Origin: Herpetosiphon aurantiacus DSM 785
Lineage (GTDB): Bacteria > Chloroflexota > Chloroflexia > Chloroflexales > Herpetosiphonaceae
Reading direction: 5' to 3'
Length of the DNA stretch: 64,000 nt
NCBI GenBank assembly: GCA_000018565.1
Contig: CP000875.1
Coordinates: 3,487,199-3,551,198, forward strand
The position numbers and the translations under genes are program-made. This document shows, piece by piece, positions 4,639 to 39,272 of this stretch (position 1 is the first letter of the stretch; every line of letters starts with the position of its first letter). The notes under the pieces were generated by a model. That model had not been told where the DNA came from and searched no databases. It worked only from the letters and a program-made list of their open reading frames with translations.

Positions 4639-5343
4639 ATGTCAAATCAACTTCCGCCAACCACCCCGATTCAGCCGAGCAACCAACCACCAGCAAATCA
4701 ACCGCCAGGCCAATGGTATGGGCAACAACCCTATCAAGCAACGCCTCAAGCCTATGGCAACCCAACCTATAGCGTTCCACCTCAAAGTGTAAATGCTACC
4801 AATAGCTGGCTGCGCTGGCTTGGTTTTAATGTTTTAGCCATGATTTTGAGTAGTGTGGTTTTTGCTGTGCTCTTTTTTATCTTGGCAATCTGGTTGTTTA
4901 TTGATGGAAGCCAAGCTGGCGGCATCGTCGATTCGATCAATACCCAAGCAGGCGAAGTGGGCTTTACAATTGGATTATTTGCTACGATAACTGGCATTAG
5001 CGGCTTAGTCGCAGGCTGGATTCAACGGATCGGGCTGCACAACCGGGTTTCTTATGGGCCATGGATATTCAAAACTGGCTTAATGACCGCCCTAACAACC
5101 GCTGTTAGCTTGGCAATCTTCTTTTTTCTGATCAATCCTAATACCTCTGCTGATAATTACCAATTGATCAATACCTTGTTTCTCACCGCAAGTACGGCAG
5201 CCATCGCCTTGGCAACTGGGTTGGGCCAGCTTTCCGAAGTAAAAAAAGTTAGCCAACAGCCCTTTACCTGGATCATTATTTCGGTCTTAACTTGGACGAG
5301 CCTAAGTGGCTTGGCATGGGGTAGTTTTATTTTCTCATTGTAA
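4639..5343 (+). CDS. Array membrane protein 1 (P/Q-rich tail, four helices)
   Basis: This is a 234-residue protein of unknown function. Residues 1-50 are cytosolic-looking and rich in P, Q, Y and N (for example QPPGQWYGQQPYQATPQAYG). Four hydrophobic helices follow (about 65-90, 110-130, 150-170, 180-235). It belongs to a set of five paralogues in this window, which share NxWxRWxGxN before helix 1, a WIQR..LHN..S..PWI.KT loop between helices 2 and 3, and an EVKKV....W......TWT stretch before the last helix. AAAGG precedes the ATG. No enzyme motif is visible; a membrane scaffold or sensor role would be a guess. Confidence 0.75.
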   Translation: MSNQLPPTTPIQPSNQPPANQPPGQWYGQQPYQATPQAYGNPTYSVPPQSVNATNSWLRWLGFNVLAMILSSVVFAVLFFILAIWLFIDGSQAGGIVDSINTQAGEVGFTIGLFATITGISGLVAGWIQRIGLHNRVSYGPWIFKTGLMTALTTAVSLAIFFFLINPNTSADNYQLINTLFLTASTAAIALATGLGQLSEVKKVSQQPFTWIIISVLTWTSLSGLAWGSFIFSL

Positions 5344-5402
5344 GCAGCAAGTCACAGCTTGGCGTTAGTGCTACAATCTTTAGCATCTATTTGCCAACTC
5401 AG

Positions 5403-5429
5403 CACTGAGCGTTCTTATAATGCCCAGTG
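5403..5429 (+). promoter_or_regulatory. Leader hairpin before array membrane protein 2
   Basis: CACTGAGC and GCCCAGTG pair with one A-C mismatch around the loop GTTCTTATAAT, 21 bases before the start codon. The position matches the hairpins before paralogues 1 and 3 although the stem sequence differs. Confidence 0.4.
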
Positions 5430-5450
5430 GTCTTATCAGGAGCTAGGTTT

Positions 5451-6365
5451 ATGCCAGAACCAATTCAACCAACCACACCATTGACCCCACCAGCAAATCC
5501 CGAGCAACCAGTCGCAACCAACGTACTTCAGCCGCAAGTAACTCAAGTGCTGGATTCCTCGACTCAAGCGTTGCCGCCTAATCCAAGCTATGGGCAATCG
5601 CCCCAAGCCTATGGCTATCAACAGCCAACACAATACGGGCAACAACAAGGCTATGGTCAGCCTCAACCGCCCTATGGCCAACAACCAGCCTATTATCAAC
5701 AACCGCCCCAAGCCTATGGCTATCAGCAACAGCCAGTGGCCTATGGCAATCCAGCCTATATGGGGCCACCGCCAATCATTAGCGATATTAATGCGCCTGA
5801 TCGTGGGCTGCGCTGGGTTGGCATGAACGTACTAGGCTTTTTTGTGGCTTCAATGAGCTTCTTGAGTTTATTTTTTGGTCTAGCCATGGTTGTCGCCGCA
5901 TCCTATGTCGATTCAAATTCAAACTTTGAAAATATTGAGAATATTGCCAATGCCGATATTCTCGTATTATTCGGCTATGGGGTCTGTGCAGCACTTACCG
6001 CAGCAATCGTGGCCTTAATTCAGCGCGGAGCCTTACATAATAAAGTTTCGCTCTGGCCATGGATTGGCAAAACGGCCTTGGCTGTAGGCATTTTATTACC
6101 ATTAAGCACCTTTCTCAGCGGCACAGTAATTAATATGCTAGAGCCTGCCGAATCAAATGCTTGGATGTTTATCGTTTTAGCCACGCTTATTTTTGGCATA
6201 ACCTCGTTTGGCACGGCCTTCGTGCAATATCTTGAGGTTAAGGAAGTCGCCAATCGTCCGATGCAATGGGTGATTACGACTGGCCTAACCTGGACAATTC
6301 TCGGTGGGTTAGTTTTAGGTGGCTTGTTTGGCTTCTTTGCGATGGCGATTGAGGGTCAGATCTAA
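5451..6365 (+). CDS. Array membrane protein 2 (long QPYG-rich tail)
   Basis: This 304-residue paralogue of the preceding protein has the longest tail in the set: about 125 residues dominated by QAYGYQQP/YGQQ units, a low-complexity, prion-like composition. Four predicted helices follow, with the shared loop LIQRGALHNKVSLWPWIGKT and the closing EVKEVANRPMQWVITTGLTWT. The ATG at 5451 has AGGAGC at good spacing and gives the same GCTAGGTTT-ATG context as paralogue 3; an in-frame GTG at 5427 is less likely. Function unknown. Confidence 0.75.
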   Translation: MPEPIQPTTPLTPPANPEQPVATNVLQPQVTQVLDSSTQALPPNPSYGQSPQAYGYQQPTQYGQQQGYGQPQPPYGQQPAYYQQPPQAYGYQQQPVAYGNPAYMGPPPIISDINAPDRGLRWVGMNVLGFFVASMSFLSLFFGLAMVVAASYVDSNSNFENIENIANADILVLFGYGVCAALTAAIVALIQRGALHNKVSLWPWIGKTALAVGILLPLSTFLSGTVINMLEPAESNAWMFIVLATLIFGITSFGTAFVQYLEVKEVANRPMQWVITTGLTWTILGGLVLGGLFGFFAMAIEGQI

Positions 6366-6534: not shown

Positions 6535-6834
6535 ATGAGACCATTATCCAAACTTTATTGGACCTTATATCTTCGTAGTGGGTTAGGCATTGCAGCACTC
6601 TTAAGTATTAGTCAGTTTTTATTCTCGCCCCAAGGTCGTAAATTAGCCTTAAATATCGTCATCTTAACAATATTTTGGCTGATTCATCGCTGGGTTAAAA
6701 CGCATCAAGCCGAGCTTGATAATGCGGTAAAACCCACTAGAGCGCAAAGCTTTGAGCAAAAATCCGATGCTGCGACAGCAACCCAGTTGCATTTCCGCGA
6801 AGTAATGTATTCCCAACAGCAACATTTAAACTAA
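6535..6834 (+). CDS. Small hypothetical membrane protein within the array
   Basis: This 99-residue protein has two short hydrophobic stretches (about 12-28 and 35-50), then a charged tail. It does not share the motifs of the surrounding paralogues and I do not recognise it. GAGG lies upstream of the ATG, and a TATAAA-like -10 element lies near 6495. Its position inside a paralogous array suggests co-inheritance but gives no role. Confidence 0.55.
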   Translation: MRPLSKLYWTLYLRSGLGIAALLSISQFLFSPQGRKLALNIVILTIFWLIHRWVKTHQAELDNAVKPTRAQSFEQKSDAATATQLHFREVMYSQQQHLN

Positions 6835-7010
6835 CTTCTTCAAACTAGGGTTAATTGACAAGTTCATTGGTATACCACTAACAGGCCATTAACCCTAGTT
6901 ATCCAATAACACCTTCTTGGTAGCCCTAAATACAATTAGCATCAATCATAGACTGTTTGGCATACCCTCCCTTATGGGTTAGTGTTACAATTTCTATGAT
7001 GATAGTGAGT

Positions 7011-7035
7011 AATGAGCGTTCTTCGGGCGCTCATT
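7011..7035 (+). promoter_or_regulatory. Leader hairpin before array membrane protein 3
   Basis: AATGAGCG and CGCTCATT form a perfect stem with loop TTCTTCGGG, 22 bases before the ATG. The stem differs from the one at 4594-4618 by a compensated base pair, while the loop and spacing are kept. Confidence 0.5.
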
Positions 7036-7057
7036 GCTATATTCAGGAGCAAGGTTT

Positions 7058-7732
7058 ATGGCCGATCCAACCAAGCCACCCTATCACGATCAGCAGTCAC
7101 CAACCGCCTACGCCATTCCAGGCTATGTAGTTCCAACAGCATTTGATCCTTCAATTAATCAGCCTAATCGTTGGATTAACTGGATGATGATCAATATTCT
7201 CAGTTTTATCGTGGCAATCGTTACGTTTGCTGTTTTAGTATTTATCGCTATTACAACCATAGGCAAGCTGAGCGATCTCTTAATGTCCTTATTACTTAAT
7301 CTCAACACCCTTCGCATTCAAATTCTTGGATTATTAATCTTGGGATTGATCGCGGCGATAACGGGCGCAGTATCGGCACTGACCCAACGATCAGCGCTCA
7401 ACTATCAAGTTCCACGTTGGCCATGGGTGATCAAAACTGCGTTAGCAGTTGGAATGCTCTTTCCAGTTAGCACAGTCTTAAGTAACCTCGTCGGAGATAC
7501 TTTTTTTCTCCGCGATACATCATGGCAACGATATATCACTACAATGCTTGTAAACTTCGGGCCAACCGCTTTTGGCACAGCCTTAATCCAAGCATTCGAA
7601 GTCAAAAAAGTTGCCAATAACCCAATCGAATGGGTGTGGGTAAGAGGCTTCACTTGGACAATCCTAGGAAGCTTGGTTGTGGGAAGTATTATTAGTTTTG
7701 TTATGGGGGTAATTGGCAGTATTAGTGTGTAA
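7058..7732 (+). CDS. Array membrane protein 3
   Basis: This 224-residue paralogue has a short, polar N-tail (about 40 residues) and four hydrophobic helices. It keeps NRWINWMMIN before helix 1, LTQRSALNYQVPRWPWVIKT in the central loop, and EVKKVANNPIEWVWVRGFTWT before the final helix. The ATG at 7058 was chosen because AGGAGC precedes it in the same context as paralogue 2. Function unknown. Confidence 0.75.
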   Translation: MADPTKPPYHDQQSPTAYAIPGYVVPTAFDPSINQPNRWINWMMINILSFIVAIVTFAVLVFIAITTIGKLSDLLMSLLLNLNTLRIQILGLLILGLIAAITGAVSALTQRSALNYQVPRWPWVIKTALAVGMLFPVSTVLSNLVGDTFFLRDTSWQRYITTMLVNFGPTAFGTALIQAFEVKKVANNPIEWVWVRGFTWTILGSLVVGSIISFVMGVIGSISV

Positions 7733-7737
7733 AAGTA

Positions 7738-7775
7738 AAGGTTGCCTCAACTGCAAACCAAGCTGAGGCAACCTT
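7738..7775 (+). terminator. Stem-loop between array genes 3 and 4
   Basis: AAGGTTGCCTCA pairs perfectly with TGAGGCAACCTT (12 bp, 14-base loop). It follows the stop codon of gene 3 and lies 25 bases before the start of gene 4. It lacks a U-run, so it may be a leaky terminator, an mRNA stabiliser or a leader hairpin like the others in the array. Confidence 0.6.
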
Positions 7776-7800
7776 AAACGATTGAGAAGAGGAAAAATCT

Positions 7801-8424
7801 ATGCCCGATTCACCCGATCCACTGATTAACCAACCAGCAACCTCCAATTCCGCGCAAGGCTATCGCATTCAAGCAACGATCATGGCCAACCATAACCAGC
7901 CAAGCCGTTGGGTCGATTGGGTGATTATGAATGGTGTAGCTTTTGTTATTAGTTGCATCGTTTTTCCAATTCTATTGGTTGGATGTTTATTGATCTTTGC
8001 AGGATTCACAGAGTCAGCCTCAGCAACCCAAGCTCAAATTTCAGATGGTTTTGGCCTGCTATTCGTCGTTGGAATTCCAGCATTTGTAACGATGTATCTT
8101 GCAAGTTTTCTACAATGGACTACGGTCAGCGAAGGAATTAATCGTTCGACATGGGTCACCAATAGCGCAACGGTTGGGGCAATTACATTGACTGTATGGA
8201 TCTATCACCTAAGCCCAATCACTGCTCAATCGATTAAAAACTACAATCAAGTTATCATTCTGACCTTTGGAATCACCTCAAGTAGTATTAGCTGGGCACA
8301 ATGGCTTGAACTACGCAAAACAATCGATCAGGCATGGCAGTGGGCATTGATTAGCATCATCACGTGGACAGGCCTTGGAACATTAATTTTTGGTTTTGGC
8401 CTTAGCTATTTGGTACGACGCTAG
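7801..8424 (+). CDS. Array membrane protein 4
   Basis: This 207-residue paralogue has a short polar tail and four hydrophobic helices. It keeps SRWVDWVIMNG before helix 1 and WAQWLELRKTIDQAWQWALISIITWTGLG near the C-terminus. The central loop motif is the least conserved of the set. GAGAAGAGG precedes the ATG. The next gene begins 15 bases after its stop, so the two are probably co-transcribed. Function unknown. Confidence 0.72.
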   Translation: MPDSPDPLINQPATSNSAQGYRIQATIMANHNQPSRWVDWVIMNGVAFVISCIVFPILLVGCLLIFAGFTESASATQAQISDGFGLLFVVGIPAFVTMYLASFLQWTTVSEGINRSTWVTNSATVGAITLTVWIYHLSPITAQSIKNYNQVIILTFGITSSSISWAQWLELRKTIDQAWQWALISIITWTGLGTLIFGFGLSYLVRR

Positions 8425-33999: not shown

Positions 34000-34788
34000 C
34001 TACATTAACCCAAACTCACGCGCCAAGCTTTGATCAAGTTGGGCATCGCCATAAGCAGGAATATACAAAGTGGCATAGGCCGAAACCTGTTGTTCGGCCA
34101 AATCTTTGAGTAAAACGCGCTGGATGGTTGGTTCTTCGATTGGCAAAATCGCTGCTTGGTAGATCGTCACCTCATGCCGAGCAGGATAAAATGCTTGTAA
34201 ATGCGCGACCAAACGGGCTAAGCCAGCCCGCGAATCAAGCTGATCATGCACCACCTTGAAATAGCCAATCACCCCAATTTGCCATAAAACCAAGGGCGTG
34301 CTGGGGTCAAAGCGCCGTGGGCGCACCAAAAAATCGCTGGCCTCGTAGCTTTGATAGCCATGCAAGCCCGGGTCAATGGCCAAATCGGCAAACAAACAGG
34401 CCTCAGCTGAAATGCCAGGTAATATGTTGACCCGCAAGCCTTCGCGCTGCCCACGCTGTACCAAATCGCTGGTGGGCGTGACAAATACACTAGGATGACC
34501 ATAAAATGCCACACAAACCCGCAATCCCTGACGCACTGCGGCCCAAATATGCTCGACCATGGCTGCATAAACCTGCTCACGCGGCTGATCGGCTTGGTAA
34601 AAATGGGCTAACGATTCGGCCTGTGGATTCAGTTTGTGAATCCATTCATCGGCCAGCGGGTGCATCACCAAGTAAAAGGTTTGGTCGGCTTTGCTGATCC
34701 ACGCATGGGCTTCATTAGTTAAATGCGCGATCATGGTGATGCCTGTGCCAACAATTGTCAGCGAGCCTTGTTTCACTGCTGACACCAT
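34000..34788 (-). CDS. Borosin-type peptide backbone N-methyltransferase (tetrapyrrole-methylase fold)
   Basis: The 262-residue protein has the tetrapyrrole-methylase fold: LTIVGTGI near the start, FYGHPSVF at 95-102 and PGISAEACLFADLAIDPG at 124-141. The last block and the following YQSYEASDFL are close to SonM of Shewanella, not to cobalamin-pathway enzymes. Y64, R70, Y74 and Y96 keep the spacing of catalytic OphMA residues Y66, R72, Y76 and Y98, as I recall them. It would methylate backbone amides of a precursor using S-adenosylmethionine. The ATG at 34788 begins one base after the upstream stop, giving coupled translation; 34806 is an alternative. Substrate fusion, as in OphMA, is absent, so this is the split type. 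Confidence 0.82.
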   Translation of the reverse strand: MVSAVKQGSLTIVGTGITMIAHLTNEAHAWISKADQTFYLVMHPLADEWIHKLNPQAESLAHFYQADQPREQVYAAMVEHIWAAVRQGLRVCVAFYGHPSVFVTPTSDLVQRGQREGLRVNILPGISAEACLFADLAIDPGLHGYQSYEASDFLVRPRRFDPSTPLVLWQIGVIGYFKVVHDQLDSRAGLARLVAHLQAFYPARHEVTIYQAAILPIEEPTIQRVLLKDLAEQQVSAYATLYIPAYGDAQLDQSLAREFGLM

Positions 34789-34789
34789 A

Positions 34790-35386
34790 CTACGTTGGTT
34801 GCTCATCAAAGGCTATTTCAAATAATGGTGGCTGATCATCTTTTTGGCGATGATAGACAAAATTCGTTAATTTTGTATGAACTGGGCGAGTTCTACCAAC
34901 CAAAATATAATTATTGGCCGGAATATGTAATTCAATTGGAATATTGGCACAATTGTAGGTTGGTTGTTCGATTTGGTTTTTGCTGCGAATATAAAAGACC
35001 TGAGGAACGTCATCAGGGTCGTTTGGGTCAACATAGCAAACATGTAAATCGAAGTAGGGATTACCGCTATCATCTTCGATCATATAGCTATGATTGAGCA
35101 ACCAGCAGGTCACGTTATAATCTTTGGATTTATCGGCGGCTTCGATAAATACATTCATATACGATGAAACTGTGACCGGAACATCTTGATAAGCTTGGGT
35201 TTCTGTTTGGGCAACAGTGCCAACGCTCCGCAAGGTCATCACGGTGGTAACTTCTTGAATTGGGTCTGCTTTGGCGAGTTTCTGACCAAGCCCTAGTTGT
35301 TGCAAAAAGCCTTGAGGATTTTGCTTGAACGAGGCTAAACGGCTTGGGTCATCGACGAGGGTTTGGACGAAATCGACCATATCCAT
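34790..35386 (-). CDS. Candidate borosin precursor with BBD-like N-terminus and large C-terminal domain
   Basis: The 198-residue protein starts with a helical segment, FVQTLVDDPSRLASFKQNPQ then GFLQQLGLGQKL (5-37), that resembles the borosin-binding domain of split precursors and also Nif11-type leaders. Next is a V/T-rich stretch (VTTVMTLRSVGTVAQTETQ, about 46-64), then about 130 residues with a beta-rich, acidic pattern. Known split precursors are about 70 residues with a C-terminal core, so this would be an unusual substrate. The next gene is the methyltransferase, one base away. The core position, if any, is not determined. It may instead be a partner protein. Confidence 0.55.
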   Translation of the reverse strand: MDMVDFVQTLVDDPSRLASFKQNPQGFLQQLGLGQKLAKADPIQEVTTVMTLRSVGTVAQTETQAYQDVPVTVSSYMNVFIEAADKSKDYNVTCWLLNHSYMIEDDSGNPYFDLHVCYVDPNDPDDVPQVFYIRSKNQIEQPTYNCANIPIELHIPANNYILVGRTRPVHTKLTNFVYHRQKDDQPPLFEIAFDEQPT

Positions 35387-35400
35387 GAATATTCCTCCTA

Positions 35401-38400
35401 CTAAACCGCAATACTCTGGCTTTGCTCAATTTGGCTTAAGCAAAGGGCTACATAGCGTTCAATTCCTGACAGTTCAACCTCAATCGTCGGCCTGCTTTGG
35501 CCTGCGGAATGCTGGTGCAACTGTAAACGATTGAGCAAACTTTTGGTTTCGGCACTACAGGCTGGATGTTGGCTCAAGCTATGCCATAGTTTGAACCAAT
35601 GGCTTGGCTCGCCATCGCAAACCGCCGCCCAAAATTGCAAAACTGTCGCATAACATTCGAGCAATAGCGGGATTTCTTGGCGTTGCTGAGCAACCATAAT
35701 CGCCCGCGCCAACCATGGCTGCACATATTGAAAATGACGTTGCGCCAATTCGAGTTGGGCTAGATGAATCGCCGCCCGTCCAATCATGGCCTCAACCCCT
35801 AGTTCTTGAAAAATGGCAAAGGCTTTGTGCAAATAGCCCGCACTTTGGGCAAAATCTTCGCGGCGCAGCGCCAACATGCCCATTTGATCGCGAATTAATG
35901 CCTCGCCAAGCGGGGTTTTGAGCTGATAGGCCAAATCAAGGCTGGCCTCAAAATGATGCTGAGCCAGATTATAATTGGCTTGTGCCAGCGCCACCACCCC
36001 CAAAAAGCGTTGACTATGGCATAACCCCCACAGATGTTTTTGGGCTTGATAGTGATCGCTACAGGTCTGGAAGGCTTGTTCGGCGGCTTGCCAATTGCCT
36101 TGTGCCAACAACACCGCGCCGATCGATAACCATGTATCACTGACTTTAATTGGATCGTTGACGCTTTCAGCCTGAGCCAAACAGCGTTGTAATAGATCAA
36201 GGGCGCGGGTATATTCGCCTCGGCGTTGGGTAATCACCCCAAGTTGCTTATAAATAAACAACAATTCAGCCACATTCTGCAATTGCCTTCGATACAAGAC
36301 ATCGATACACTGTTGCAATAATGCCTCAGAACGTGCTAATTCGCCCAAAATATAATGAAACTCAGCGTAACACGAAACAATTCGCACTACAATTAAAACG
36401 ATCTCAGCCTCAACATCCTGATGGTCAAGCGTGCTTAATAACGCTGCGGCTGGAGCAAAAAGCTGTTGGCCTTCGATCTCGCGGTTGCGAATCGCAAAGA
36501 AATCGTGTAAAGCAATACAATAATCGCCTAAAATATGAATTTGTTGGGCTTGAACCGCCCAGAGCCAACCACCCCGAATATTATCAAGCTCTTGTTCTAA
36601 GAGCATTAACCCTTGTTGGCTGGCGTTGCCATGAATTAATTGCTCTTGCTGACGGCTAAATTGGCCAAAGTAGCGGGCATGGCGTTGATACAGCGTTTGC
36701 TGATCGGCGGCCAAGCCTTGGAGTTTGGTTTGGGCAAATTGATGCAGCAATGGGTGTAAGGCATAGCGGGTTTGTTGTTGCAAAATTTCAAGCGTGAGCA
36801 ACGATTTGGCCCGTAAATTGGCCAGCACGTTCAAATCGACCTCGGCAATGATTGTGGCGGTTTCAGCATTAAAGCTACTAGGAAATACCGCCAAGCGTGC
36901 TAGACAAGCCTGTTCATGCGGATCAAGCAATTGCCACGAATAATCAAAGGCGGCCTGGATGCTGCGATGGCGGGTTGGAATATCGACCACATCGCTATGA
37001 AAAAGCTGCATGTCATTGCTGAGTGCCTCGACAATTTCATGGCCACTACGAATGGTCATCCATGGCGCGATCAATTCAATTGCCAACGGCAGGCCATGGA
37101 CCATCTGGCAAATTTGGCCAATCGCTTGACGATCAGCGTGGCTATAATCGGCCAAATCGCCCGATTTGCCTTGCCGCTGCAAACAATGCACAAATAAATC
37201 GACCGCTGCAAAATGCTGAAGTTGCTCGGCCAACAGCGGCGAATAGCCTGAATCATCATTAATCTGGGGATAGGCCAAGCCTGCTAATTCCAATACATAT
37301 TCGTTTTGCAGGCGCATGCGCTCGCGCGAGCCAATAATTAAGCGCAATTGCGGAATATGTTGAATCAGACTGCTGAGGGCTAAGCGAGCGCTAGTCGCCA
37401 ACAATTCGCCATTATCAATGATGATGATCAATTCATGCTGTTGCAACTGGAGAATCAGGTGTTCAACCAGATCGTTGGTGCGTGGTGGTGGTAGGTTTAA
37501 GGTCTGCACAATTGCCAACAACACAGGTTCTGCATCCAACAGGCGCGGCTGTTGATCGGCACTGACCAAGGAAATATAAAAAACTCCGTTGCTCGAAGCC
37601 CCTAAATATTCGTTGACCACCTTCCAGCCAAAGGTCAGGGCTAATTGGGTTTTGCCGCTCCCGCCAGCGCCCATAATCGTCAACAGTTGGTTACGTTCAG
37701 CCGCCAGCCAATGGGTCATGCGTTCTAGCTCAGTTTGGCGACCATAGAGCATTGGAGTTGGCCGAATCAACCGATGCGGACGTTGGGCGGGTGTTGCCAT
37801 AATTTGGCGCTGCAAGGCCTCACTCGCTGGCTCGGGTTTTAATCCATACTCACGCTCTAAAACTTGTTCGAGCAGCCGATATTGGCGCAGGGCAGTGTGG
37901 CGTTGGCCGGTGCGCATCAACAGCAACATCAACTGGCGATGGGCGACCTCATCACATTCATCAAGCGTCACCAAGCGCTGAAGCCAACGAATTGCCTCGT
38001 TGTAGTTGCTTACCACGGTATAGCGTTCGATCAGGCGGCGAATCGCGACCAGCGCTTGTTGTCGCCAATATTCTACCTGTTGGAGTTGCCAGCTGCTGAA
38101 GCCATCGGCATCGCGGAGATAAAACCCATTGAGAAAATCGCCTTGATAATGTTCGATCGCGCTGGCTAATTCGTTGGTTGGGCTAGCTGGGTTCTCAAAA
38201 ATTTGGGTGCAATGCTGAAGGTCGAGCCAATAACGGGCTTGGGGATGCAACCCGATCGTATGGCGCGTGACCTCAATAAACGGGTCCATCACTTTGCGTA
38301 ATTGATTGAGTGTGAGGCGTAAGTTGCCCGCCGTGCGTTCTGCCGATAAATCATTCCATAACAGTTGTGCCAAAACCTCACGTTCGTGGGGGTAAGGATT

Positions 38401-38553
38401 GACGACAAGGTAGATCAGCAGTGCTTCCACTTTGCGAGTTGCTAGATCACTAATGCGTTGATTGTCGATAAAGATCCGCAAGCCGCCAAAAACGTGAATC
38501 CGTAAACTTGGCACCGATTGAGCCGAATCATCAGGCTGATGCGTGACATTCAC
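35401..38553 (-). CDS. SARP-type regulator with NB-ARC and TPR domains
   Basis: The 1050-residue protein has an OmpR-like winged helix (about 15-95, LRIHVFGGLRIFIDNQRI), a bacterial transcriptional activator domain (about 100-245), an NB-ARC ATPase with P-loop IMGAGGSGKTQLAL (about 290) and a long TPR-rich C-terminus (about 650-1000). This AfsR-like layout marks activators of specialised metabolism. Its stop lies 14 bases before the precursor candidate, so the regulator and the two borosin-type genes seem to be one operon. It is divergent from an ECF sigma gene. Confidence 0.9.
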   Translation of the reverse strand: MNVTHQPDDSAQSVPSLRIHVFGGLRIFIDNQRISDLATRKVEALLIYLVVNPYPHEREVLAQLLWNDLSAERTAGNLRLTLNQLRKVMDPFIEVTRHTIGLHPQARYWLDLQHCTQIFENPASPTNELASAIEHYQGDFLNGFYLRDADGFSSWQLQQVEYWRQQALVAIRRLIERYTVVSNYNEAIRWLQRLVTLDECDEVAHRQLMLLLMRTGQRHTALRQYRLLEQVLEREYGLKPEPASEALQRQIMATPAQRPHRLIRPTPMLYGRQTELERMTHWLAAERNQLLTIMGAGGSGKTQLALTFGWKVVNEYLGASSNGVFYISLVSADQQPRLLDAEPVLLAIVQTLNLPPPRTNDLVEHLILQLQQHELIIIIDNGELLATSARLALSSLIQHIPQLRLIIGSRERMRLQNEYVLELAGLAYPQINDDSGYSPLLAEQLQHFAAVDLFVHCLQRQGKSGDLADYSHADRQAIGQICQMVHGLPLAIELIAPWMTIRSGHEIVEALSNDMQLFHSDVVDIPTRHRSIQAAFDYSWQLLDPHEQACLARLAVFPSSFNAETATIIAEVDLNVLANLRAKSLLTLEILQQQTRYALHPLLHQFAQTKLQGLAADQQTLYQRHARYFGQFSRQQEQLIHGNASQQGLMLLEQELDNIRGGWLWAVQAQQIHILGDYCIALHDFFAIRNREIEGQQLFAPAAALLSTLDHQDVEAEIVLIVVRIVSCYAEFHYILGELARSEALLQQCIDVLYRRQLQNVAELLFIYKQLGVITQRRGEYTRALDLLQRCLAQAESVNDPIKVSDTWLSIGAVLLAQGNWQAAEQAFQTCSDHYQAQKHLWGLCHSQRFLGVVALAQANYNLAQHHFEASLDLAYQLKTPLGEALIRDQMGMLALRREDFAQSAGYLHKAFAIFQELGVEAMIGRAAIHLAQLELAQRHFQYVQPWLARAIMVAQQRQEIPLLLECYATVLQFWAAVCDGEPSHWFKLWHSLSQHPACSAETKSLLNRLQLHQHSAGQSRPTIEVELSGIERYVALCLSQIEQSQSIAV

Positions 38554-38660
38554 GGAGCTACATCTCCAATAAAACGATTTTGAAACGCTGGGCCGCTATG
38601 CTGTGAATTGTAGCAGACCTTGTAGCGGATATTCAATAGATAGTGAATGAAGGATGAGCT

Positions 38661-39272
38661 ATGAACAGCGAAGTTCGGAATCAAAACCATCACAGCGAAA
38701 CAGTGGCATTACAACTCGTCGAACAAATTTGCCGAGGCGAACATGCAGCCATTTGGGAGTTGTATAGTTTGTACCACACTGAACTGTCACAGCAATGTTT
38801 AGTTTGGATGCATGGCAATCCCCACGATGCCGATGAAGCATTAAGCCGTTTGGTGCTCAAAGCGTGGGAATCGTTGCCCCGCCATGCCTATAAAATTACC
38901 AACGCCAAGGCTTGGCTCATGCGCATGGCCTACAACATTTGCATCGATATTCATCGTCAACAACAACGCGAACTCAAGCGGCTTCAACCGCTCGATAGCC
39001 TGCTGGGCAATGACGACAGCATGCCACATAGCGCAACGCCCTCGCCCGAAACGGCGTTGTTGAAGCGCGAAGTTTATGAAACGATCAATCAAGCCTTGCA
39101 AGCGTTATCGCCACGCTTGAATAGCACTTTTTCGTTGTGGCTCTACAACGATATGTCATGCGATGCGATTGCGCAGCATCAAGGAATTTCGTTGGCCAAT
39201 GTCTATAAACGCTTGCAACAAGCCCGCGATATGTTGCAACCACAATTACGCCCAAGCACTGTTGAGGGGTAA
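38661..39272 (+). CDS. ECF-type RNA polymerase sigma factor
   Basis: The 203-residue protein has sigma region 2 (about 25-100, with a degenerate DADEALSRLVLKAWESLPRH core and AWLMRMAYNICIDIHRQQQR) and region 4 (about 135-195, LSPRLNSTFSLWLYNDMSCD then AIAQHQGISLANVYKRLQQAR). AAGGATGAG precedes the ATG. No anti-sigma gene follows. It is divergent from the SARP regulator with a 107-base gap, so the two may act on the same locus. Confidence 0.85.
   Translation: MNSEVRNQNHHSETVALQLVEQICRGEHAAIWELYSLYHTELSQQCLVWMHGNPHDADEALSRLVLKAWESLPRHAYKITNAKAWLMRMAYNICIDIHRQQQRELKRLQPLDSLLGNDDSMPHSATPSPETALLKREVYETINQALQALSPRLNSTFSLWLYNDMSCDAIAQHQGISLANVYKRLQQARDMLQPQLRPSTVEG

Follow-up and report, generated by a model that had tools for sequence, protein, structure and literature searches.

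Within a 64,000-nt window of the genome of Herpetosiphon aurantiacus DSM 785, a gliding bacterium of soil from the phylum Chloroflexota (contig CP000875.1, positions 3,487,199–3,551,198; "the window" denotes this whole stretch), three tightly spaced minus-strand genes were found to encode, in this order, a BTAD/SARP-NB-ARC-TPR regulator, a 198-aa protein and a borosin-type methyltransferase (Table 1). Our favoured reading, to which we assign a probability of about 0.5, is that the last two form a split borosin system with an internal core, in which the 198-aa protein would dock on the enzyme and be methylated at a site with a short leader on one side and a folded domain on the other. The family and catalytic residues of the enzyme, the half-size borosin-binding domain (BBD) of its partner, the exclusivity of the pair and the conservation of the unit were established by sequence comparison.

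The methyltransferase

Open reading frame (ORF) coordinates agreed with the layout described in an earlier inspection of the bare sequence (hereafter, the sequence-only reading): 14 bp separate the regulator from the 198-aa gene, and a single base stands between the TAG stop (34790–34792) of the latter and the methyltransferase ATG at 34788. This start is conserved in relatives, where it appears as the Met of KMPN (locus L015) or MP (L014), and the upstream ATG at 34806 is therefore probably not used. A strong ribosome-binding site (AGGAGG) is found 7 nt before the ATG of the 198-aa gene, which suits a substrate produced in stoichiometric amounts.

In a phmmer search of PDB sequences the methyltransferase matched SonM (E = 7e-49) and OphMA (E = 2e-45), whereas the next match, a precorrin-2 methylase, scored 0.088; identity to SonM was 39%. 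Residues Y58, R67, Y71 and Y93 of SonM, mutation of which lowers activity (PMC8429565), aligned with Y70, R76, Y80 and Y102 in the 268-aa numbering of the enzyme (start at 34806). These are the Y64, R70, Y74 and Y96 from which the sequence-only reading had correctly recognised a SonM/OphMA-like enzyme. Across 78 aligned enzymes Y80 and Y102 were invariant, while R76 was present in 75 and Y70 in 59. The SonM loop 208–216, around which the docking domain of SonA wraps, was retained as AAILPIEEP. A tree of 78 enzymes placed the Herpetosiphon protein among borosin enzymes, SonM included, rather than with the cobalamin-pathway methylases that the sequence-only reading had named as the contrary outcome.

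Since the protein carries the Pfam TP_methylase domain, which tetrapyrrole methylases have in common with it, an identity as a cobalamin-type methylase lying beside an unrelated gene was also considered. This was rejected, as refuted by sequence, on the gap between the SonM/OphMA scores and that of the best precorrin methylase, on the cobalamin equivalog models, all of which remained far under their cut-offs in an NCBIfam search, and on the presence of the complete set of borosin catalytic residues. The assignment as a borosin-type alpha-N-methyltransferase, a small enzyme family, is solid at the level of family, and methyl transfer to the peptide backbone is predicted.

Docking domain, candidate core and beta-rich domain of the 198-aa protein

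The first ~35 residues of the 198-aa protein are, by profile comparison, a truncated BBD. NCBIfam model NF038175 (IniB_NTERM) matched residues 3–34 (E = 1.3e-7, short of the curated cut-off) and also picked out the ordinary borosin precursors L075 and L088. A hidden Markov model (HMM) of the BBD, built from 15 precursors of other loci with the Herpetosiphon family excluded, scored the protein at 24.7 bits, whereas none of 2000 shuffles exceeded 8.4 bits, so the docking-domain call goes beyond chance. When the family profile was compared with 177,635 PDB sequences, seven matches were obtained at E ≤ 10, all of them SonA (E 0.37–0.65, none significant singly). Coverage of the BBD model extended over positions 5–37 of 58, corresponding to helices 1–3, with helices 4–5 missing in Herpetosiphon; AlphaFold2 (AF2) placed helices at residues 3–12, 14–22 and 24–30. 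In the homologue from another genome of the order (G024, locus L018) a fourth BBD helix is retained, as predicted by a second model. The BBD-like character that the sequence-only reading had given to the first 37 residues thus held for residues ~3–35 and for helices 1–3 only.

NF038175 is a model of the mycobacterial IniB N-terminal domain, and its matches to the BBDs of the 198-aa protein, L075 and L088 suggest that the IniB N-terminus and the BBD belong to one superfamily. Only this N-terminal domain is common to IniB and the 198-aa protein.

Behind the docking domain AF2 gave a very low-confidence stretch at residues 34–61 (predicted local distance difference test, pLDDT, 32–45 at residues 31–60), followed by strands at 62–193. 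The best-conserved ten-residue windows between the 198-aa protein and the G024 homologue (29–30% identity) were the start of the BBD and residues 43–54. The island QEVTTVMTLR at 44–53 was identical to G024 at 6 of 10 positions, compared with 2/10 and 1/15 in its flanks, and in distant Herpetosiphon species it was invariant at 9/10 positions (flanks 5/10 and 6/15). Because it is conserved in an otherwise variable, disordered linker directly behind the docking domain, this V/T/M/L-rich island is the leading candidate for the methylated core. Its location parallels that of the SonA core, which comes after the BBD and a linker (PMC8429565), and we counted this in favour of an internal core. The sequence-only reading had proposed such a core at about residues 46–64; the internal position is favoured by our data, but the extent is narrower, since residues 54–68 vary, with 1/15 positions identical in the distant homologue.

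Under the favoured reading, the N-terminal half-BBD would dock on the methyltransferase loop AAILPIEEP, as the SonA BBD does on SonM 208–216, and the flexible linker behind it would sit in the active-site channel. The enzyme would then move methyl groups from S-adenosylmethionine onto backbone amides of segment 44–53, with the beta-rich domain remaining attached as C-terminal cargo or follower. The clamps of SonM open by up to 14 Å (PMC8429565), and the SonA BBD can feed the channel by unwinding its helix 5 (Miller et al., PMC8429565). As clamps opening to this extent could admit a segment sideways, a folded C-terminal domain would be no obvious obstacle, and the missing helix 5, the flexible linker and a sideways-opening channel appear compatible with an internal core.

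Several points weigh against this reading. The three-gene unit contains no protease that would release a product, and the exact family of the 198-aa protein was found in two divergent groups only, the genus and G024. The structure models are weak, with a mean pLDDT of 58.8 for the first and 48.6 for the second (the other models of the first job reached ~38). In addition, in the comparison of the family profile with PDB the island formed a gap-free alignment with the last part of the SonA BBD (helix 5 region), and residues 44–53 might be a docking element replacing helix 5 instead of a core; the spacing between BBD and island, which is not fixed and is 8 residues longer in G024, speaks against this last possibility.

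No Pfam, NCBIfam or PDB sequence match was obtained for the beta-rich domain, and Foldseek on the weak AF2 model of the 198-aa protein returned nothing under E 0.13. The fusion of a BBD-like part to a beta-rich domain of about 130 residues, as first described from the bare sequence, was supported, with low-confidence models as the support for beta content; the fold of this part is not established. It is rather unlikely that the methylated stretch lies within this domain, for instance in the last strand PPLFEIAFDEQPT, in which case the enzyme would act before folding or would block closure of the fold. Such a position would match known borosin cores, which are C-terminal and hydrophobic (PMC8429565), as well as the endings LLFT, LVLVV and VVVVI of many loci fetched in the scan described below and the hydrophobic strand near the C terminus of BBD-less middle proteins from other Chloroflexota. 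However, the last strand was poorly conserved with G024 (2/9 aligned positions) and is predicted to be part of the fold.

Exclusive pairing and the wider family of loci

The Herpetosiphon genome holds a single borosin enzyme and, at meaningful score, a single BBD-like domain, encoded by adjacent genes: the BBD search gave 4.5e-10 for the 198-aa protein, and the next match (0.29) was interrupted by a stop. Enzyme and partner were present throughout the genus (six of six genomes) and in one further member of the order (G024, enzyme identity 56%), always adjacent and never singly (7/7), and a search of 53 more relatives did not find the pair. The same seven pair-bearing genomes were returned when 158 genomes from across the class were searched, and there were no plasmid-borne copies. 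The homologue search and neighbourhood analysis proposed in the sequence-only reading thus supported conservation as a unit, in the form of this 7/7 co-occurrence.

The pairing also bears on whether the 198-aa protein is a substrate at all. We consider it unlikely that it instead serves as a BBD-bearing adaptor, inhibitor or scaffold, docking on the enzyme and giving it a separate, unlinked substrate. No second BBD-bearing gene exists in the genome, no third small ORF was seen in the unit, and the conserved island behind the BBD would be left without a reason. Pointing the other way are the lack of a protease and of a visible separate core, the BBD-like domains that also cap other enzymes, namely dioxygenases (PMC8429565), the occurrence of BBDs where none would be expected, for example on a PRMT-like methylase (L074), and an Ardenticatenaceae middle protein without a recognisable BBD.

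Related enzymes were found at 79 loci in a scan of a genome collection with one genome per species (84,980 species), and 61 of these loci had a BBD ORF within the fetched stretch, mostly adjacent to the enzyme gene (median BBD ORF, 103 aa). BBD proteins of 140–310 aa with repeats or disordered tails were seen at other loci, and the statement that split precursors are small, made in the sequence-only reading, was too strong.

In Chloroflexota, BTAD regulator, variable protein and enzyme followed one another on the same strand and with close spacing in Herpetosiphon and at L018, L023 (Anaerolineae), L052 and L076 (one Ardenticatenaceae genome), and L051 and L084 (Caldilineaceae/Chloroflexi). The L018 regulator is cut by a contig end, and the rest of it is probably the piece C36:1–2733 (860 bits) from that genome. 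The middle protein combines a BBD with a beta-rich domain in Herpetosiphon, L018 and L023, and with acidic repeats in L051 and L084; in L052 and L076 it is beta-rich without a detectable BBD, the beta-rich label of L023, L052 and L076 being read from sequence and not from models. L023 was linked to the Herpetosiphon protein by its BBD only, and hhalign gave no support for a shared origin of the Herpetosiphon and Ardenticatenaceae beta-rich parts (probability 0.6). The enzyme docking loop was altered in the BBD-less L052 and L076, but also in L051, which has a BBD.

It is quite improbable that the locus is an ordinary split borosin, in which a core beside the BBD would be methylated and excised by a housekeeping protease, leaving the beta-rich domain as a dispensable long follower. 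Long disordered or repetitive precursor tails do occur in related units (L051, L084, L060, L073 and L089), yet the beta-rich part was identical at 112–114 of 130 positions in distant Herpetosiphon species, unlike a dispensable tail, and L023, L052 and L076 likewise have beta-rich middle proteins.

A quick enzyme tree scattered the enzymes of these cassettes. A constrained tree, with the cassette enzymes as one clade, was 16.5 log units better than the quick tree and was not rejected (p-AU 0.716), which makes a single origin of the cassette the simpler reading. The same comparison disfavoured a scenario in which unrelated enzymes each acquired the regulator independently. Tentatively, and with the odds against it, the units can be read as a Chloroflexota borosin clade with a dedicated SARP-type regulator that methylates the backbone of folded beta-rich proteins rather than of released peptides; the site would be internal in Herpetosiphon, between a half-size docking domain and a folded domain, and the Ardenticatenaceae protein would be used without a docking domain.

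Some individual loci showed further features. The two Ardenticatenaceae middle proteins (L052 and L076), from one metagenome-assembled genome (MAG; CFX1), share a G-[FL]-YV-x-DD stretch. The Caldilineaceae unit (L051:1045–1548, 5132–5677 and 6541–8403) includes a BBD precursor with the repeats GRIFAASIDEP and EKVYGDSADD, and lies between two ORFs named by eye, one papain-like cysteine-protease-like and the other LodA-type-oxidase-like. Precursors of ~270–310 aa with long tandem repeats (PQIHPQIFPQ, VVYAAGQAQ) at L060, L073, L083 and L089 are likely many-core or structural. In a Paracoccaceae MAG, the ORF directly before the borosin methyltransferase, which it overlaps by a few bases, encodes a 396-aa PRMT-like arginine methyltransferase that includes a BBD-like stretch (L074:4829–6019), placing a docking domain on an enzyme.

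Regulator, neighbouring features and relation to known borosins

The sequence-only reading had named a SARP/NB-ARC/TPR activator upstream of the pair, and this was borne out by Pfam matches to BTAD (2.8e-19) and TPR_12 (1.1e-12), with NACHT and NB-ARC under the cut-off. Cassette regulators of the other units scored 342–860 bits against the Herpetosiphon regulator, for which the highest-scoring paralogue within its genome reached 246 bits. The best match was the cassette's own regulator in four other cassette-bearing genomes, and in genome G508 it was the probable remainder of the cassette regulator across a contig break. Other regulator paralogues came near in the Ardenticatenaceae genome (up to 349 bits), and no further borosin-like unit was seen around the closest of these. 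The regulator is linked to the pair, and its presumed role is to activate the three-gene operon that it heads.

Table 1. Coordinates (window numbering) of the three-gene unit, the segments of the 198-aa protein and the adjoining features
Feature	Position	Strand	Remarks
BTAD (SARP-type)-NB-ARC/STAND-TPR transcriptional activator	35401–38553	-	1050 aa, GTG start, first gene of unit
198-aa BBD-beta protein, presumed substrate	34790–35386	-	AGGAGG Shine-Dalgarno before ATG
Truncated BBD, residues 3–34 of 198-aa protein	35285–35380	-	NF038175, leave-out BBD HMM, SonA PDB matches, AF2
Conserved island QEVTTVMTLR, residues 44–53 of 198-aa protein; leading candidate core	35228–35257	-	Conservation compared with flanks
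Beta-rich C-terminal domain, residues 69–198 of 198-aa protein, no recognised family	34793–35182	-	AF2 strands, low confidence
Borosin-type peptide-backbone N-methyltransferase (predicted)	34000–34788	-	262 aa from conserved ATG 34788; 268 aa from ATG 34806
Promoter-like site, extended -10: TTGAAT-18-TACAAT, TG before -10	38607–38636	-	54 bp before regulator start; weak
Divergent ECF-type (extracytoplasmic function) sigma factor	38661–39272	+	Conserved neighbour in genus, not beyond; unit membership uncertain

The promoter-like site before the regulator is graded weak because such sites were no commoner in the region than in shuffles (7 observed, 7.7 in shuffles, no enrichment). The divergent sigma factor was kept beside the regulator in all three other Herpetosiphon species examined (90–92% identity), and the other window neighbours were absent from the 6-kb flanks of the cassette in these species. 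G024 had no sigma gene at the divergent position and carried a 221-aa beta-rich ORF there instead (L118:3031–3696, family not recognised). Divergent ORFs without a Pfam match also adjoin the regulator at L076:1198–1755 and L023:587–2317.

The closest known system is SonM–SonA from Shewanella oneidensis, a split borosin of type IV (PMC8429565; PDB 7LTC and others), which likewise has a separate ~263-aa enzyme with an adjacent BBD gene, identical catalytic residues and an LPI..P docking loop. SonA, however, is ~71 aa long, with a five-helix BBD and a C-terminal core, whereas the Herpetosiphon protein has three helices, an internal candidate core and then a 130-aa beta-rich domain, and the pair is preceded by a SARP regulator, unlike SonM–SonA. 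OphMA and the other fused fungal borosins (types I–III) share the enzyme family and the Tyr/Arg/Tyr/Tyr residues at OphMA spacing, but unite leader, enzyme and core in one chain, in contrast to the two chains found here, of which the partner is translated first. The Herpetosiphon locus has separate adjacent genes and an N-terminal BBD confined to the first 35 residues; since its partner is a 198-aa protein with a beta-rich domain after the candidate core, and not a small precursor with the core near the C terminus, we filed the locus as a variant and not as type IV. In the scheme of PMC11395268, where class 3 comprises a BBD fused to the core with a separate enzyme and class 4 comprises clusters with no BBD, Herpetosiphon, L018, L023, L051 and L084 fit the layout of class 3, and the Ardenticatenaceae loci L052 and L076, in which no BBD was found, fit class 4.

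A literature search, outside which lay the papers defining types V–X, gave no description of a folded beta-rich protein as a BBD-bearing or BBD-less partner, and, apart from mentions in passing, no paper connecting borosins with Herpetosiphon or Chloroflexota. One paper reportedly describes over 1600 split-borosin clusters, and the Herpetosiphon locus may be among them. Its novelty as a catalogue entry is uncertain, and that of the folded partner is likely.

To our knowledge, backbone N-methylation by ribosomal pathways is known mainly on peptides with the core at the end of the chain. In Herpetosiphon, the only apparent substrate is not a short peptide but a docking tag joined to an entire folded protein, a hint that enzymes of this kind may modify proteins as well. 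If an internal segment before a folded domain is indeed accepted, the system would offer a tool for placing backbone methyl groups inside proteins, and the function of backbone methylation in an intact protein would become a question. Several natural pairs, with and without a docking domain, are supplied by the regulator–protein–enzyme unit that recurs in Chloroflexota.

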